64,000 nt of DNA from the NCBI GenBank assembly GCA_027972325.1, contig JAPMOS010000002.1:966001-1030000 (forward strand), given 5' to 3'. Below the pieces are notes generated by a model that saw nothing but the letters and a program-made list of their open reading frames with translations, did no database searches and was not told where the DNA came from. Source of the stretch: Paratrimastix pyriformis (Eukaryota > Preaxostyla > Paratrimastigidae). Every line of letters starts with the position of its first letter. The first letter of the stretch is position 1. Both the position numbers and the translations under genes were made by a program. Positions 30,923-64,000 of the stretch are shown one piece after another.

Positions 30923-33900
30923 GGCGGGGGGGCTGGGATGGCGGCATCCGGACCGGTTCAGGACGCACATCTTGCCGAGGGCCGTGCAGGCGTGGGCCCG
31001 GACGAGGGCGGGCACTTTGACGGGCGCCGAGGCGGCCGGGACGGCGTGTCCGTGCCCTTGAAGGGTCTGGGGCTGGGGCGAGGCCTGCGATTCAGCCCCG
31101 GCCAGGGCTGGCGCGGGGGCTGCGGGGGCTGCGGGCGTGGGGGGCGCCGCCCGGAAGGGGGTGATGGTGGGGGCGATCAGGGCCTGCACGGTGGTCACCA
31201 GCCGGGGCGGCAGCGCCACACGGGGGATCTGCGCCACCAGCCCAGCCGGCCGTCACCGAGAGGGGAAGCCATCAGGCAGGCGATCTTGGGCCGGGGCGGG
31301 GGCGAGGCGGGGCGTGGGAGGGGCGGGCGCTCCAGACGAGGCTCAGCTCGCCGGCCAGCTCAAGGCGCCTGCCCATGAGGGCCACCAGGGCCCCGTGGGC
31401 GAACAGGGGCGCCTGCACGAGGCCGCCCTCGGCCAGCTGGCGGCCGTGCTTCTGCCCGGCGCCCCCCGGGGGGAGAGCCTCCGCCGCCTGGGATGGGGTG
31501 GGGGGCGGGGCGGCTGCGGGGGTGGCGAGCTCGCCGCAGAGGGCCCGCCAGAGCATCTCGTCGATGCGGCCCAGGGCCTCCCCGCAGAAGGCCACCAGTT
31601 CGGGCGGGTGCGCGGCCCGGGCGGCCTCCGCCTCGGACGGCTTGGCCTTGACCTTGGCCCCACCTGCGCCACCAGCAAGCAGGCACATCCACCGCCACCG
31701 AAGGGGCGGCCGAGGGGGTCATCCAGGGGCCGAGGGCGGGTGGCAGTGGCAAGGATCGCACAGCCGAGTGTCCGCGGCAGCGCTGCAGAGGTGGGCGGGG
31801 GAGCTGCGGCGGGCGGACCGGGGGCCGCAGCCGGGTGGTGGGCGGCCTCCATGAGGCGCCCGAGGGCGTACAGGCAGGGCCGGCACAGCGGGGCCGGCAG
31901 GGTCGCTTCCCGCACTCGAGCTGCCCGCCCCCGCCCCCGACCCCGCCAGGCCACGTCAGAGGCGTGTCGGAAGGAGACCCCGGGGGGGCCAGCGGCGGCC
32001 CCTCCACAAGGCCGGGGAGGTGGCGGGGATGGAGGGGGAGGGGCATGGTGCGGACCGGCGAGGGTCTCGGTGACGGCCGCCAGGCCTGGGCGGGGCATGT
32101 GGAGCCCCATGTGGCCCACGACCGTCAGGGCGGTCGCCTCCAGGGCCACGACCGCGTTCAGGGGCAGCCCACAGGGGGCCGGTCGCCCCGGGGTGGTCGT
32201 CAGGGCGGCCAGCGTCCGCCAGGCCTGCAGCACAAGCCCTGGAGGGAGCAAGGCGCGCAGCCCAGATTAAGAAGGAAGACAGTGATGGTTCTGGTTAGGG
32301 TTCTGGTTATGGTCATGGTCATGGTCATGGTCATGGTCATGGTCATGGTCATGGTCATGGTCATGGCGATGTGCGCGAAAGAGAGCAAGAGGCCGGAGGT
32401 GGGGACTGCTTCGCGTGTGCTGCACGCCACGGGTGCGGTGCTGCCAGGAGCCAGTCCCCTGGGGGTGGGGGCGGCATGGGGGGGGGATGGGGCCGGGGCC
32501 GGACCGGCGTCGAGGTGGCGCTGGAGGTGGGGCTCCTGTGCGAAGCTCGCCAGCAGCACCCAGGCGCCCTCGTCCAGCCATGCCGGCAGCATGTCGGGGC
32601 CTTCGGGGCCCGGGGCGGCGGGCGCGGCGGTGGGGCCGGGCCCTGCAGGCGGGGCGGGGGCGCCGCGTCGGGGCCGAGGGGCAGGCCGGCCTTCAGGTAG
32701 CGGCACAGGTTGCCCAGGGCGGCCGGGGTGGCGCGCCCCTGGGCGGCCAGCATGTGCAGGGCGCGGCGCAGGTGGTTGGCCACGTCGGTGGGCAGGTTGT
32801 GCAGCGCCAGGCAGGCGTCCCGGTACTCGGTCAGCCCGCGGCTGGCGGCCCGGGTCGCGAAGGGCTGCGGACGGGTGGGGCGTAGCGGTGCGGAGGTCAG
32901 GACACGGCGAGGAGGGCGGTGGGGGCGAGCGGCTGGGGCTGGGGCTGGGGCTGGGGCTGGGGCTGGGGCTGGGACCTCGATGATGCCCTGGCGGACGCTC
33001 TCCAGGGCCCGCTCGGCCACGCTCTGCTCGGGGTCCACCACCAGGGGCAGCACCGCCTGCACCGGCGCGCAACCGCCACCCGCATAGAGCCCAAAGGGGT
33101 GCGTTCGAAAGGGGCGCCGTGATGAGCCGGGCGGTGACACCCATGGGGATGGGCGGCTGGAGCGTCATCATGGCCCCCGGGGGGGGGGGGGGGGGGGGGG
33201 GGGGCGGCAGATGGGGTGGATGCCGACCTGAGCCCACAGCCGGGCCACCCGCTCGTAGGGCGAGGCCTCGGCGCGGGCCGCCTGGGGCCGGGCGGGGCTC
33301 GAGAGCGGCCCGCCTGCGTCCTGCGGGGCGCCGCCTGGGGCGGGCCGATGGCGGGACGAGCAGGCAAGCAGCACCGAGAGGGTCGCAATGGCCTGTGCAG
33401 ACGTGTGCCAAAGCAGCGGCGGCAGGGGGGCGAGGAGGGAGGGGTGGAGGGTGAGAGAGGCCCGTCCAAGGATGAGGTGTGGGGTTTCTAGCGGGGCAGA
33501 AGGAGCCCCCGGGTCGCCCAGCATGGGCTGGGGGCATGCGCGAGGGGGGCCGACCTGTTTGCGGACGGAGGATGCCGGGTCGAGGCACCGGTCGGCGATG
33601 GCCTGCTCCTCCTCGGGCTGCAGCCGCATCCACCGGGCGGCCGCCCCCCCGGCGGGGCTGGTCGGGGTCCCCGGCAGGGCAGCCGCCTCGGCCGCCCCCG
33701 CGGCCGCCTCGGGCTCGTCATCGTCCTCCGGGTCGGCCACGGCGTCGGCACCGGATGGCCCCCGGGGGGCGGCCGGAGGAGACGCCGGCGCGCGCTCGGG
33801 GGACACCGCAGGCCCAGGGCCACCACCCGCTGCGGCCGCGGTCAGCTGGCCAGCCCGGGTGGCGAGGGCCTCGAGGGCCCCCAGGGCGTAGCGGCGCACG

Positions 33901-34600
33901 AGGGCGTGGCTGTCGCCCAGCCGCCGGCGGAGGACCAGCCGCAGGGCGCCCTCGTTGGCGGCCAGCAGCTCCAGGGCCGCCCGGCGCAGGGCCAGGGCCA
34001 TCTGGCGGCTCGAGAGGCCGTGCGACCCGCGGACGGTGGCCCCGCCCGCCCGGGCCCGACTGCAGACACGATCGGAGGGCCACCGATGAAGATTTCCATC
34101 GCGGGGGAGGGGCGGCGGGCCCGCACGGGATGATGAGGGGCAGGCGGGGCGTCCGACCTTGCGGCGGCGCGCCCTCGAGGGACTGCTCGGGCGGCGGCGG
34201 CGACCCGAGCGGGTGGGGCCGTGTCGCCCTCGTCGGCCGAGGCGTCGGGGCCGGCGGCCTCCTCGTCGCCCACCGTCACGAGCTCCAGGGCCCCCGAACC
34301 TGCCCCACGCAGCCACAGCCACCCCGCACCAAGCAGCAGGTGAAGTCGGGCGGGGCTGGGGCACATCCCGCCGGAGCGCACGGCGGGACCCGGGGCGATG
34401 GCGACGCGCCTGTCGTTCCCATCGAGTCGGGCCGGTTGTTCGGTCTCAACCAAAAAGGTTCCCCGCCCCCGATACGCCCCTGCCACCGCACATCAGGTCT
34501 GGTTTTGTGGCCACCCAAAAAGTCCATCACCGCGGGCCAGGGCGCCCTCTTTGCCCCAACCTCGTCCCTCCTTCTTTGCCTCTCACCACGCAAGCCGCTG

Positions 34601-37968: not shown

Positions 37969-38640
37969 ATGGCAACGGCCCCGCCTCCGGGTGGGGATCA
38001 ACCGCCAAGTTACACACCAGAAGAGGTTTCCGAATTTATGGCCGCCTTTAATTTTTTCGATCAGAGTCTGCCAGCCCTGTTTCTCATTGTAAACCATTGT
38101 TCTCCCAGAAAAAGAAGGGAAAATTGCGATCCAGCAATTAGGATCGGTGTTTAGAGCGCTTGGATTTGATCCGGCGGATGCGTCTGCTCTTCACGTTTTC
38201 CTTGGGTCATCTCCCTTTCTCAGGAAGATCCAGAATCTGCTTGAAGAAATTAACCTGAAAGACCACCGTTTTGTGGAAGCCGAGGAGTTCATTCGCCTAC
38301 TGGCTCGTCGACGCCCCGAGGTTGATCAGGCCCGGCAGATCAAGGAGTCGTTTGCTATGTCTGCCACCCCGCCGCCCTCCGCCTCTGATCTGTCTGTGGC
38401 CCCAGGTTCGATCTGGACGCCGACAAAGAGGGCGTTCCTCGCCGCGGATTTCTCGCTGTGGACGAATTGCGCCGCCTGCTGACCACGACCGGAGACCGGC
38501 TCCCCGACAACGAGGCAGACGAGCTCATCAAGGCCGCCGACCCCTCGGGGCTGGGGTACATCGCCTACGACGCCTTCGTCGAGCAGCAGTTCGCCCCGCC
38601 CCCCAAGAAGAAGAAGGGAAAGAAGAAGAAGAAGAAGTAG
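37969..38640 (+). CDS. Calmodulin-like EF-hand protein with poly-Lys tail
   Basis: ATG at 37969 (MATAPPPGGDQPPSYTPEEV), stop TAG at 38638-38640. Three introns (38066-38108, 38182-38223, 38359-38405), all with GTCTGC donors, split the EF-hand core exactly where homology demands. The spliced protein reads EEVSEFMAAFNFFDQKKEGK, IQQLGSVFRALGFDPADARK, VEAEEFIRLLARRRPEVDQ, MFDLDADKEGVPRRGFLAVD and AADPSGLGYIAYDAFVEQQF, aligning with all four calmodulin/centrin EF-hands. The loops are poor Ca2+ sites: hand 1 ends in Gln rather than Glu, hand 2 lacks the loop acids, hand 3 carries a four-residue insertion, and hand 4 has Ala at position 12. The C-terminus is PPPKKKKGKKKKKK, likely to bind acidic partners. 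It may be a Ca2+-independent light chain or structural EF-hand protein. Confidence 0.85.
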
Positions 38641-58826: not shown

Positions 58827-61800
58827 CTACACGGTGTAGCGTGTTGATGCTACGAAGAAGTCGAGGCGGGTGTGAATGCGAATGAGGAAAAGGGGACAGA
58901 CTGGCCATGGGCGCGCCAGCGCTGGCCTCGGTGATGATGCGAAGCACCTCGAACTTGGCCCGCTTCACGGCGCTCTCTTCGGCGCCTTCGATGCAGAGGT
59001 ACAGCTTCCGCTGACCTGCGGAGGGGGGGGGGGGGGGGGGGGGGGGGCTGAGAGCCGACGGAACGGAGGGGGATGCAGACCTGCCGGGACGTGCTTGCCG
59101 GGGGCGAAGAAAAAGCCGCGGGTCGTGATGGCCACCCCGGTGAGCTCCACAATATCGGCCAGGGTTTCCTGTCGAGCGGCGGGGTGGGGGCAATGTGAGG
59201 CCTTCCTCTCGCCCTCTGGGCGCACTCCTATCCACCGCCAGCCGACAACTCAGAGCGGAGCGGACGCCCTCCCCAGGCTACCACAGTACACATTCGGGTA
59301 TGCACCCAGCGAGATGGACGGGCCTTGTGGGTGATGCGGTAGCGGGCGGGCTGTGGGTAGTCGTTGATCTCGACCTCTTCGACGTGGTGCGTGGTCCCGA
59401 TGACCACCTTGGGCACCGCCCCGGCCGCCCCGGCTGCCCCCATGATGCGAAGGGAGCGAGCCACCAGGGCGGCACGCCGCAGGCTTTCGATCTGCACCCC
59501 CGAGGAGAAGACGGAGACCCCATGAGGCGAGGAGGCGACGATGATGATCACGCAGTGCGGGGAGTAGCAGGGCGGGTGCAGCAAAATCAATGGGAATGGG
59601 GCGCAGGCAGGGTCGGGCCGGAGGGCGGTGCGGGCCTGCTCGGGGGTGGCGTTGAGGGGCGCGTTGAACTCGAGCCCGTCGCTGGTTTTGACCAGCCGCT
59701 GGCCGGCCACGATGGTGCTGGTGTATGAGGCCGGAGGCACCTGCGGCGACCCGGCCGGGGGCGGCGGAACAACGGCCCCTCCGCCCCGGGATGCCTGGAT
59801 CTTCATGGCAGCCGCGATGGCCTGGGGGTGGGTTGGTCGGGGCGGGAAGGGGGTTCAAGCATACAAGAGGACGGTCAGCAATCCCCCGGGGCAGAGCAGT
59901 CAGAGGGAGCAGGGCGAGGTGGGGAGGGCAGGCATCCGGACCGCCTGAAGGGCCGGGTTTGCCGGCTGCCCTGGGGCGCCGGCCTGTGGAAGCAGCCCTG
60001 GGGTGCCACCCGGGGTGGGCAAAACTCCAGCCGCGGCGGCCGCCGTGGCGGGCATTGGGGCCGCGGGCGCGCCACCCGGGAGCAGCCCGGACAGGGCTGC
60101 GGCCGGCTCAAGGGCCGATGGGGGCATGGCTGGGCCCAGGGGGTTGGCGGCTGTGTGTGCGAGGAGCCGGAATGATGAGCCAAGGGTCAGACGGGAGGGA
60201 GGGGAGGATGAGGAGTGGGGGGTCGCAGGCTGGGGTCCGGGCAGGGCAGGGGCAGAAGGGGCGGCGGACCCTCGTCGGCGGCCATCTCGGCCTCCAGAAG
60301 GAGCTCCTCGGTGTTGGGGTGCAGCTCCTCGGGGTCGATCGCCCCGTATTCCTGGCCCGGGGCGGAGACCGAGAGGGGCGCGTCAGCACGCCACTGGGAA
60401 CGAGGGGGGGCAGGAGGACGGGGAGGCAGAGCAAGGAGGCAGGAGGCGGCGCGTGGCCACGGACGATCTTCTGGGCGGTCAGCTCGGCGTCCTTCTGTGC
60501 GGCCTCGGTCTCGTCGAATTTGAAGCCCTGTCACCAACGCCGAATACGGGGAAAAGGCCCGCGTGAGGCAAGGACGGGGCGTGGGCGGGGTGCGGGGATG
60601 GGTGCGGGCGCTGCGGACCTTACCGCCGAAGCCCGAGGAGTGGGCGTGGGCGAGGTTCTGGGAGAGCTTCGCCTGGAAATCTGCGCCGCGGGCGGGTCCC
60701 CAATACCCCCAGTCGAGTGAGCCGATCCGCGTACCGACCCCCCCATGGGCCCACAGGGGAAGTCAGGCGGGGCCGGACGAGGCCAACTGGAGGGGGGCAG
60801 GAGGCGGGAGTGGGGGCGGACCTTCGGCCATCTTCTTGAGGTCCTCCGGGATGGCGGCCTTGCTCTCCTGCAGGGCCCGGACCAGGTCGGGGGCGTACTT
60901 TTCCTCCTCGGGGGTGACGAAGGTGATGGCCGTGCCCTTGTTGCCCGCACGGCCCGTCCGGCCCACCCGGTGGACGTAGTCCTAAACACAATGAAGAAAG
61001 GCGTCCACCCCAGTGAGACGCTGCCCAAGAAGGCGCGGGGAGGGGCGGCACGACGAGGGAGGGGTGGGGCGGCGACCTCGAGGTGGTTGGGGCACTCGTA
61101 GTTGACCACCAGGACGAGGCTCTTGACGTCGAGGCCGCGGGCGGCGACCGAGGTGGCCACCAGGATGTTGATCTCGCCGTTCTTGAAGTCGGTGATGGTG
61201 CTGTCCCGGTCGGCCTGGTCGCGGCCTCCGTGCAGCGGCATGCAGGAGTACCTGGCCGACCCGACCCCGAGTTGAGCCATCCCCATCGCCGAGCGTGAGC
61301 AGACCTGTTGAGAGAGGCGGAGGGGAGGGAGTGGGGAGGGGCAGACCCCGCCTGGACGAGCTGCTTGAAGAGGCCGTCGGCCTTCTCCTGCTGGGCGACG
61401 AAGACGATGACCTGGCCCCGGTTGTGGTGCTCCTTCAGGATCTCCAGCAGCTGCGCCCGCCCAGCCGCCAACAGACCCCAGACCGCCGACCCCGCCGCCG
61501 CCGCCACCCGAGCCGTGAGCCGCGCGTCCGGGGAGGGCGGGTCTGCGGACGGACCCTGACGAACTTGTTCTGCTCGTCGACCATGAGCACCTGCTGGGTG
61601 ACGTCGCTGCAGACGACCGACTTGCCGCCCACGATGATCTCCAGCGGCCGCTTCAGGATCTGCCGGGCCAGGGCCTCCAGCTGCCGGCCGAGGGAGCGAG
61701 GGGGCGAAGCGGCTCATGGTGAAGCCCCTCTCCCTCCCTCCCTCCTCTCCCTCCCTCCCTCCCTCCTCCCTCCCTCCTCCCTCCCTCCCTCCCTCCCTCC

Positions 61801-64000
61801 CTCCCTCCCTCCCTCCTCCCTCCCTCCCTCCCTCCCTCCCTCCTCCCTCCCTCCCTCCCTCCCTCCCTCCCTCCTCCTGGCCGTCATCCGGCAGCACCCA
61901 CCATCACGTTGCCGACCTGACGGGGGGTTGCACTGAGGACCGTCTGCCGATCGGGCTGGACGTTTTCCATGATGCGGGTCACCTGGACGGGAGCGGAGGA
62001 TCGCACAGGAGGGCGGGTGGGCACGACCACGGTGATGTTGAATCCAACCAACACCCTTGGTGCATTCGACACAAGGGGCTCATGGCAGAGTTGGCGAGGG
62101 CGGGGGGGGGGCGCGACCTGGGGGATGAAGCCCATGTCGAACATGCGGTCGGCCTCGTCCAGCACCACGTACGAGGCCCGCTTGAGGTTGGTCACCCGGC
62201 CCGAGTTGGCGCAGAGCAGGTCGATCATGCGGCCCGGCGTGCAGACGACCACCTCGGCGCCCCGCTTCAGCTCGGCGATCTGCTCGGAGATGCCCGACCC
62301 CCCGTACGCGCACAGCACCTGCCCGGCAGACATCATGGCCCCCCACAGCCCGGAGCGATGGAAATGGCAGGATGAGGACACGCGATGGAAATGGCAGGAT
62401 GGGGACACGCGATGGAAATGGCAGGATGAGGACACGCGATGGGACGAGGGCGCGCGTTGGGCAGACCCTGAGGCCGCACGCGATGGCGAGCTTGCGGGCG
62501 TCGTGGTAGATCTGGACGGCCAGCTCGCGGGTGGGGGCGATGATCAGGGCGATGGGGCCCTCGCCCAGCTCCACCCGGGGTTGATCGAGCACGTCTGATC
62601 AGCGCCCACGCCAGCCCATGCCATTCCCCCCGTCCGACCGCCGGCCGCCCAGGACCGAACCGAATGAGCTCACAAGCAACGGCAGCGGGCACGCAGATTC
62701 GATGGGATGAGCATGTCCCGGCCCCGTGGTGGTGTGTGCTGGCGTTTGCTTGGCAGCTGCACAGGGTGGAGGGGGCGGGGCGGGGCAGGGCAGGGCGGGA
62801 CGGACGCCTGAGCATGGGCAGGACGTAGGCGAGGGTCTTGCCCGAGCCCGTCTTGGCGGATGCGATCACGTCGCGGCCGGCCATGATGGCCGGGATGGCC
62901 TGGGCCTGGATGGGGGTCGGCTGCTTGAAGCCAAGCTTCTCCTTCAGCACGTACAGGCTGCCGGGGAGAAAAAGAGCGTGAAATGTGGGCGGGTGCGGCG
63001 CGGGGAGGGCAGCGGGGTGTCGGGGGGCGATGGCCGGGGAGAAGGCACGGGCGGAGCGAAGCAGAGAACCAACCGGGGGAGGGGAGAGGGAGGGACGGAC
63101 ATGCGGTCGTTGAGGCCCATCATCTCCCAGTTCTTCAGCGGGCGTGGGCAGTCCTTCCCCTGCGCCGATGGAAGGCGGAGCGTTCGTGAATCCGAGGAAG
63201 AGGGTTTCGCAACGCGGCCCAATGCATGGAATAGGGTGAGGAAGGGGAGGTGAGGGTTGGATGAGGGAGGGGAAGGCGGATGGCGACCTTGATGCGGATG
63301 CCCTCGAGCTCCTGCCTGAGGACGGCCACCTGGGCGTCGGTCATGGCGCGCACCTCGGGCGGCTCGATGAGGAAGTTCTTGCGGAAGGGCAGGTAGTCCA
63401 TGGCGCTGTGGTCGATGACGGGCATCTCCTTCCGCTTCTCCTTCTTCTTTTGGCTGCGTCCCAGGGGGCCAAGGGGCAGGCCCAGCAGGGGGGGGGGGTC
63501 CGAGTGAGATGTGCCTCATCGTCGACCATGTGCTACCGAGCAACCCGCCCTCTCAGCGTCTTTCATCATCCGCCCCCCATCCGCCCTCTTTTCCGCCATC
63601 CCCAATCGCCGCACCCGGTTGTGGGGCCGCAGACAGGTTGGCAAGCCAGCCGCTCTCGGGGTCGAAGGCCTGCGGGTCGTCGTCGTCATCGTCGTGCTGC
63701 CCTCCCAAGACGCAGACCCACGACCGGACAGGGATTGAGCACACGAGGGGATTCGCGGGCCGGGGCGGGGCCGGGGGGGCGGGGGGGCGGGGCGGGGCGG
63801 GGCGGGGCGGGGCGGGGCGGGCGGGCGGGGCGGGGCGGGGCGGGGCGGGGCGGGGCGGGGCGAGCGAGTCGGGGCGGGGCGGGGCGGGCGGGGCGAGCAG
63901 CGACTATGGTGCGCTTGGAGGAGTCACGATCCTCGGTCTCTTCGGCGGCGTCCCCTCGGCCGGGGTGGCCGTGACCTCCTTGGGGCGCTTCTTCTCGTCG
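58827..64000 (-). CDS. DDX46: DEAD-box RNA helicase DDX46/Prp5, N-terminus outside the window
   Basis: Stop TAG at 58827-58829; the 5' end lies beyond 64000. Prp5/DDX46 remodels U2 snRNP at branch-site recognition. Diagnostic order: [20 protein letters not shown] (human KELPAVDHSQIYYQPFRKDF), [43 protein letters not shown] (motif I), [11 protein letters not shown] (Ia), [34 protein letters not shown] (II), [20 protein letters not shown] (III), [28 protein letters not shown] (V) and [15 protein letters not shown] (VI), then [16 protein letters not shown]. The Prp5-specific KH-like tail follows: [35 protein letters not shown] and [20 protein letters not shown], ending STRYTV as human ends KGRYKVL. 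Motif III is two residues shorter than human MFSATFPRQ. The 5'-most visible exon (63.9-64.0 kb) is basic, [20 protein letters not shown]. The introns carry several minisatellites. Confidence 0.93.
61731..61874. repeat. CCCTCC/CCCT pyrimidine microsatellite
   Basis: Roughly 140 bp of CCCT units with interspersed CCTC, inside the DDX46 intron between motif III and the downstream LEALARQ exon. On the coding strand it is a purine GGGA tract. Confidence 0.9.
62359..62442. repeat. 27-bp tandem repeat, three copies
   Basis: Three head-to-tail copies of a unit beginning GATGGAAATGGCAGGATG and ending GACACGC, in a DDX46 intron. One copy differs by a single base. Confidence 0.9.
63766..63898. repeat. 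GGGGC pentanucleotide array
   Basis: About 130 bp of GGGGC units with GGGC variants, in the intron after the first visible DDX46 exon. The plus strand is a strong G-quadruplex candidate; the transcript carries the GCCCC strand. Confidence 0.9.

Follow-up and report, generated by a model that had tools for sequence, protein, structure and literature searches.

Introduction

The 5' end of U1 snRNA is treated as near-universal, and the GTRAGT signal with which introns begin, paired by canonical U1 as GURAGU (ACUUACCU), is usually taken as fixed. In the Saccharomycotina, a study (PMC10581693) describes switches from A to U at +4 of the donor: the intron start is bound through base pairing by the ACAGA box of U6, and +4 lies opposite the central A of that box, where U pairs with the unmodified A of U6, and the +4 preference is linked to METTL16. 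There ACUUACC of U1 is invariant where a U1 was found (227/230, plus 9/10 outgroups), and a change of the pseudouridine at U1 position 5 to A is named as a hypothetical compensation, not seen in the species studied. Genome-wide non-canonical donors occur in Fritillaria borealis, for which PMC13326754 reports a strictly preserved U1 5' end and proposes a U2AF duplication together with m6A changes. In Eurytemora affinis, GA and GG donors make up about 12% of introns and the only intact U1 is canonical at its 5' end (PMC5714493). The diplonemid S. specki carries a conserved U1 together with a single C-rich copy (PMC12621601), the U1 5' ends of the Guillardia and Bigelowiella nucleomorphs are conserved, and in the laboratory a suppressor U1 was made whose base change compensates one in the donor (Zhuang and Weiner 1986, as cited in PMC11732430). 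Among the open-licence literature matches listed, none described a genome in which U1 reads ACAGAC or donors read GUCUGU, and the terms 'U1 snRNA' and 'GUCUGU' came together in only one paper there, on animals (PMC5387049).

The genome of Paratrimastix pyriformis resembles the canonical major spliceosome in its U2, U5 and U6 boxes and its GT-AG borders, and canonical U1 in a full-length Rfam match with GAUCA in stem-loop I; it differs in having AG at U1 nucleotides 5-6, U at nucleotide 11 and the donor GUCYGY. It is like the Saccharomycotina (PMC10581693) in a donor shift toward pairing with U6 ACA at +4, and unlike them in that U1 and +3 have both changed and the genome keeps a METTL16-like gene; the position-5-to-A compensation named in that study is seen here, together with nucleotide 6 changed to G and C at +3. 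Unusual donors are common as in F. borealis (PMC13326754) and E. affinis (PMC5714493), but the U1 5' end is strictly preserved in the former and canonical in the latter. S. specki (PMC12621601) likewise has a naturally occurring U1 altered in its 5' letters, whereas in P. pyriformis the alteration is in every copy found and fits a single donor consensus. Compared with the suppressor U1 cited in PMC11732430, the change is likewise compensatory, here natural and genome-wide. Judged from sequence, the spliceosome is an ordinary one in which the U1/donor code has been rewritten; the other unusual-donor genomes checked have a canonical U1 5' end or copy.

Results

Intron donors

The assembly examined comprises 56.06 Mb in 495 contigs and is eukaryotic on the evidence of introns and snRNA genes; the window is the whole stretch of 64,000 nucleotides that was analysed (C112:966001-1030000). 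Introns were placed by spliced protein-to-DNA alignment, the only assumption being flat GT..AG borders with no donor motif imposed, and the queries were sequences of solved structures, namely DDX46 (presumably the human protein) and seven CCT subunits. Eight conserved genes, spread over 7 contigs, yielded 39 introns, all of which were kept: 11 in DDX46, in the window and so on C112, and 28 in the CCT genes on C28, C112, C113, C13, C43, C473 and C1. The set is without the eighth CCT gene, which was found on C223 and not aligned; a gap lies near one C13 intron, and the exon preceding one DDX46 intron is gapped. The DDX46/PRP5 introns and those of an EF-hand gene in the window are as follows, removal costs being in alignment points.

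38066..38108, plus strand: EF-hand gene intron 1, GTCTGC...CAG, phase 1
38182..38223, plus strand: EF-hand gene intron 2, GTCTGC...CAG, phase 2
38359..38405, plus strand: EF-hand gene intron 3, GTCTGC...CAG, phase 2
63160..63287, minus strand: DDX46/PRP5 intron, donor GTCGCC, spliced alignment, removal cost 83
62958..63100, minus strand: DDX46/PRP5 intron, donor GTCCGT, spliced alignment, removal cost 22
62595..62805, minus strand: DDX46/PRP5 intron, donor GTCCGT, spliced alignment, removal cost 48
62319..62466, minus strand: DDX46/PRP5 intron, donor GTCTGC, spliced alignment, removal cost 49
61983..62117, minus strand: DDX46/PRP5 intron, donor GTCGCG, spliced alignment, removal cost 46
61681..61916, minus strand: DDX46/PRP5 intron, donor GTCGGC, gapped exon before, removal cost 14
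61451..61554, minus strand: DDX46/PRP5 intron, donor GTCCGT, spliced alignment, removal cost 19
61252..61346, minus strand: DDX46/PRP5 intron, donor GTCTGC, spliced alignment, removal cost 53
60982..61076, minus strand: DDX46/PRP5 intron, donor GTCGCC, spliced alignment, removal cost 74
60681..60821, minus strand: DDX46/PRP5 intron, donor GTCCGC, spliced alignment, removal cost 55
60528..60618, minus strand: DDX46/PRP5 intron, donor GTCCGC, spliced alignment, removal cost 41

A first-pass annotation of the window had described the three EF-hand introns at these coordinates, all starting GTCTGC, and this is confirmed by the 179 aa spliced product, whose calmodulin match (best E 2.4e-29) spans all three junctions with no gap at any of them, a seven-residue gap falling after the third. 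The same annotation had proposed C at +3, mostly C or T at +4 and mostly G at +5 as the general donor, and the homology-placed introns bear it out: +3 is C in 39/39; +4 is C in 19, T in 16, G in 4 and A in 0 (C or T in 35/39); +5 is G in 35 and C in 4; +6 is C in 22, T in 14, G in 2 and A in 1. The exon base at -1 is G in 35/39, and none of the 39 donors belongs to the canonical GTRAGT class with R at +3. Simple arithmetic puts the chance of C at +3 in 39/39, at a background of 0.38, near 4e-17. All four G at +4 lie within 60982-63287 (minus strand), among the eleven donors of the GC-rich DDX46 gene (GTCGCC twice, GTCGCG and GTCGGC), and three of them (GTCGCC twice, GTCGCG) are without G at +5; pairing at these GTCG donors is possibly weaker or bulged. 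ATCC, the donor core of U12-type introns, occurs in 0/39 donors, and U12-type introns were rejected as an explanation though a U12-like gene exists. The GC content of the window in 4-kb slices is 57-76%, and C/(C+T) in the interior of the 39 introns is 0.64. The window also holds a tRNA-Ser(CGA) gene (33839-33931, plus strand).

When donors were removed one at a time, the alignment lost at least 15 points in 35/39 cases and at least 10 in 37/39; the two weak donors, of which the C43 gene and the C473 gene have one each, cost 5 and 1. Forbidding GTC donors lowered the score by 567, 318, 347, 263 and 129 in the five genes tested of the eight, while allowing only GTC donors left the scores the same in all five. 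These losses argue against GTRAG sites concealed close by as the true donors, a reading that single-donor removal and the ban on GTC exclude for most of the 39 introns. On homology-placed borders, the intron start in the P. pyriformis genome is confirmed as GTCYGY and not GTRAGT.

With GT and AG as its sole splice signals, a gene finder run unsupervised and trained on long ORFs of the window yielded 92 introns, surely with false ones among them, in which +3 is C at 0.83, +4 is C at 0.59 and T at 0.21, +5 is G at 0.66, and +6 is C at 0.63 and T at 0.17; over all 5398 window GTs on both strands, the background is 0.380 C and 0.385 G at +3 and 0.335 G at +5. Once donor and acceptor profiles had been learned, 111 introns gave C at +3 in 0.94 and G at +5 in 0.82, figures that are partly circular. 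With fixed donor models, the gene-finder scores were 7801 for GTCYGY, 7788 for flat GT, 7517 for GTGYGY, 7467 for GTTYGY, 7396 for GTATGT and 7390 for GTRAGT, so that GTCYGY leads GTRAGT by 411, GTGYGY by 285 and GTTYGY by 334 log units; over flat GT its net gain is only about 14, made up of +77 on the minus strand and -63 on the plus strand.

U1 snRNA genes

A search of the assembly with the Rfam U1 model disclosed at least eight U1 genes on eight contigs, a lower bound because 41 of 992 first-look candidates were scored. All match RF00003 over its full length (1-166) with 50.8-60.2 bits and E from 3.7e-13 to 2e-10, under the Rfam gathering score of 69.5 bits, the curator's threshold; judged by their 5' end, fold and promoter, the eight are still identified as predicted U1 genes, the sub-threshold scores notwithstanding. 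All eight begin AUACAGACCU, the canonical start being AUACUUACCU; the gene start is ATACAGACCTTGC in 8/8 copies, and the longer read is AUACAGACCUUGC against the Rfam consensus AUACUUACCUGGC. The 5' end thus reads ACAGACC in 8/8 and ACUUACC in 0/8, nucleotides 5 and 6 being A and G in place of the usual UU and complementary to +4 U and +3 C, while nucleotide 11 is U, differing from canonical U1. From the donors alone the first-pass annotation had predicted a U1 5' end of roughly GCRGAC, or else donor recognition mainly by U6/U5 or proteins; the (AU)ACAGAC(CU) present in 8/8 agrees with five of those six letters, and departs from the prediction at nucleotide 3, which stays A.

A pattern left open at U1 nucleotides 5, 6, 11 and 12 has eight matches in the assembly, which are the same eight genes and all AG, and a reversed-pattern control has 0; no canonical U1 copy was found in the assembly with this pattern, which requires GCGATCA in the body and could miss a more diverged gene. 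The first 24 letters are identical in the eight copies. Over seven of the eight, the copy with an insertion being left out, mean identity is 1.00 across nucleotides 1-60, 0.50 in the 100 bases upstream and 0.26 downstream. Stem-loop I with GAUCA, a multi-stem fold and a 3' hairpin are present (cmscan alignments of 2/8 copies, MFE fold of one copy). Stem-loop I, the loop of which is the binding site of U1-70K, reads GAUCACACAG (e.g. L009:121-145) where Rfam has GAUCAaGAAG, and the segment AUAAUGUUUGG, a candidate Sm site by sequence alignment, aligns to the Rfam segment AUAAUUUgUGG. Matches to the altered U1 start in the viral_contigs (116 stretches) and genome_contigs (at least 119) were rejected, as they look like chance; a stricter motif applied to 196 of those 235 loci (L046-L241) left 5, by eye not U1.

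Predicted pairing of the altered U1 with the donors

The pairing register was fixed with U1 C8 opposite +1 G, and Watson-Crick pairs were counted from -3 to +7. The 5' end of U1 complements the donor of its own genome (8 U1 genes, 39 donors), pairing with AG/GUCUGU fully from -2 to +6. At the 39 donors the altered U1 makes on average 6.69 Watson-Crick pairs, compared with 5.08 for canonical U1, and the mean duplex energies are -8.67 and -3.88 kcal/mol, respectively; at 1000 random window GTs the latter are -4.01 and -2.90 kcal/mol. Among the 16 dinucleotides possible at U1 nucleotides 5-6, AG is best, with an excess over all window GTs of 2.78 Watson-Crick pairs, and GG second with 2.71; by duplex energy GG is first (-11.3) and AG second.

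The first-pass model leaves unexplained the C at +4 (19/39) and +6 (22/39), which stands opposite A5 and A3 of U1 without pairing and would meet adenine in U6 too. Given the interior C/(C+T), GC pressure may be enough for C to be tolerated at these positions, an A+.C wobble being one way; the pyrimidine itself seems selected, because purines are rare there (4 and 3 of 39). A doubtful further possibility is that adenines of the altered U1, perhaps also those of the U6 ACAGAGA box, are deaminated, since inosine at nucleotides 5 and 3 would read C and U alike and give exactly CYGY. Consistent with this, C and U are both common at +4 and +6, while +3, opposite G, is C only and +5, opposite C, is G in 35/39; moreover the strongest duplex among the 16 options comes with G at U1 nucleotide 5, whose pairing is much like that of inosine.

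Other snRNAs and spliceosomal proteins

U6 (4 copies) retains the ACAGAGA box (GAUACAGAGAAGAUUAGC), U5 (7 copies) the canonical GCCUUUUACU and U2 (8 copies read of 10 matches) the canonical GUGUAGUAUCUG, which rules out altered U6, U5 or U2 boxes as the cause. The comparison of U1 and U6 with the donor that the first-pass annotation had proposed thus finds the U1 end altered to match, beside U6 ACAGAGA and a canonical U5. CCCATAA lies upstream in 27/27 snRNA regions (8 U1, 8 U2, 4 U6, 6 U5 and 1 U12), a count without one of the seven U5 loci, missed by the start pattern, and two of the ten U2 matches. It ends at -52/-53 in U1 and -51 to -53 in U2, and lies 46-47 bases before U5 and 59-60 before U6. 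It is a clean predicted snRNA promoter motif, common to U1, U2, U5, U6 and U12 (loci L001-L037), and its equal distance in U1 and U2 supports the assumed U1 5' end. The U12-like gene (L037, C432:103343-103517, minus strand) carries AUGAGUAAGGAAAAUA and the shared CCCATAA and scores under the Rfam cut-off; it probably indicates a minor spliceosome, which would need its own, unshifted donors.

Neither a U1-C gene nor the N-domain of a U1-70K gene was found in exon-by-exon searches, which cannot show absence, and as no control genome gave a U1-70K match either, these negatives say little. A candidate for U1-C was rejected, as PF06220 and the U1-C query match the same zinc-finger gene, resembling WBP4/FBP21; this zinc-finger and WW gene (L036, C86:24809-24943), which we take to be WBP4/FBP21-like, has by eye a GTCCGT...CAG intron of its own. 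A METTL16-like gene (L297, C332:38824-39153, minus strand; FDFCMCNPPFF) is kept despite the pyrimidine at +4; we read its CMCNPPFF motif as that of METTL16, and the Pfam family that it matches also matches in bacteria. The target of METTL16 is the U6 ACAGAGA-type box, and U1, sharing AUACAGA with that box, might be methylated too. In the last 60 intron bases, TNAY is present in 33/39 introns (22.7 in plain shuffles) and CTCAC in 13/39 (4.4), with CTRAY in only 1/39; a branch point of TNAY or CTCAC rather than CTRAY is suggested, although U2 keeps GUAGUA.

Discussion

The reading we prefer, with a probability of about 0.9, is a genome-wide paired change of the U1 5' end and the donor, the major spliceosome using a re-coded 5' splice site. 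The donor consensus, the sequence of the U1 genes and the complementarity between them are direct observations; we infer that the eight genes make a working U1 snRNP, that its pairing drives donor choice and that U6 contacts +3. The donor would have shifted from GURAGU to GUCYGY alongside the change of U1 nucleotides 5-6 from UU to AG, so that U1 5'-ACAGACCU-3' would pair with AG/GUCUGU through G6 with +3 C, A5 with +4 U, C4 with +5 G and A3 with +6 U. U1 would find the donor by this new pairing and the donor would then pass to U6, which keeps ACAGAGA: its ACA is expected opposite +4 to +6, and the next G could also face +3 C. Having AUACAGA in common, U1 and the U6 box should favour one and the same CYGY, read through the same ACAG, and the conflict at +4 between U1, which wants A, and unmodified U6, which wants U, would be removed.

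An improbable alternative is that the donor moved for another cause, through reading by U6 or proteins or through GC-rich mutation pressure, and that U1 drifted or is little used. The DNA is indeed GC-rich (57-76% in 4-kb slices), GC pressure favours C, and the pyrimidines at +4 and +6 also occupy positions expected opposite U6 ACA; yet +3 is C throughout the 39 introns though G is as common after window GTs (0.385 vs 0.380), and the identical change stands in all eight U1 copies found and comes top of the 16 dinucleotides by pairing contrast. Lower still we rate the chance that the eight genes are variants or pseudogenes while a working canonical U1 has escaped, hidden by an assembly gap or by its own divergence. 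Their scores under the Rfam cut-off, a family search that scored only the best candidates and a pattern dependent on GCGATCA in the body would all allow it, but against it stand the spread of eight copies over eight contigs, the identity of their first 24 letters, a conserved RNA and the promoter element shared with U2, U5, U6 and U12, and the observed donors would offer a canonical U1 only poor pairing. That the true donors are GTRAG sites nearby, GTC being an artefact of alignment or frame, is scarcely credible: although all intron borders come from homology and the gene finder, forbidding GTC costs 129-567 points in 5/5 genes tested and removal of a donor at least 10 points in 37/39, so that both controls already exclude such an artefact for most of the 39 introns.

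If the paired change is as we read it, a genome with both sides changed constitutes a natural compensatory-mutation experiment, in which the U1/donor code would prove rewritable genome-wide. Such a system lets one test the role of the pseudouridines at U1 5 and 6, the sharing of the donor between U1 and U6, and whether U1, U6 or METTL16 sets the +4 preference; were the inosine reading true, the donor code would depend on an RNA-editing step. In the P. pyriformis lineage itself, training a gene finder on GTRAGT would probably lead to misplaced exons.
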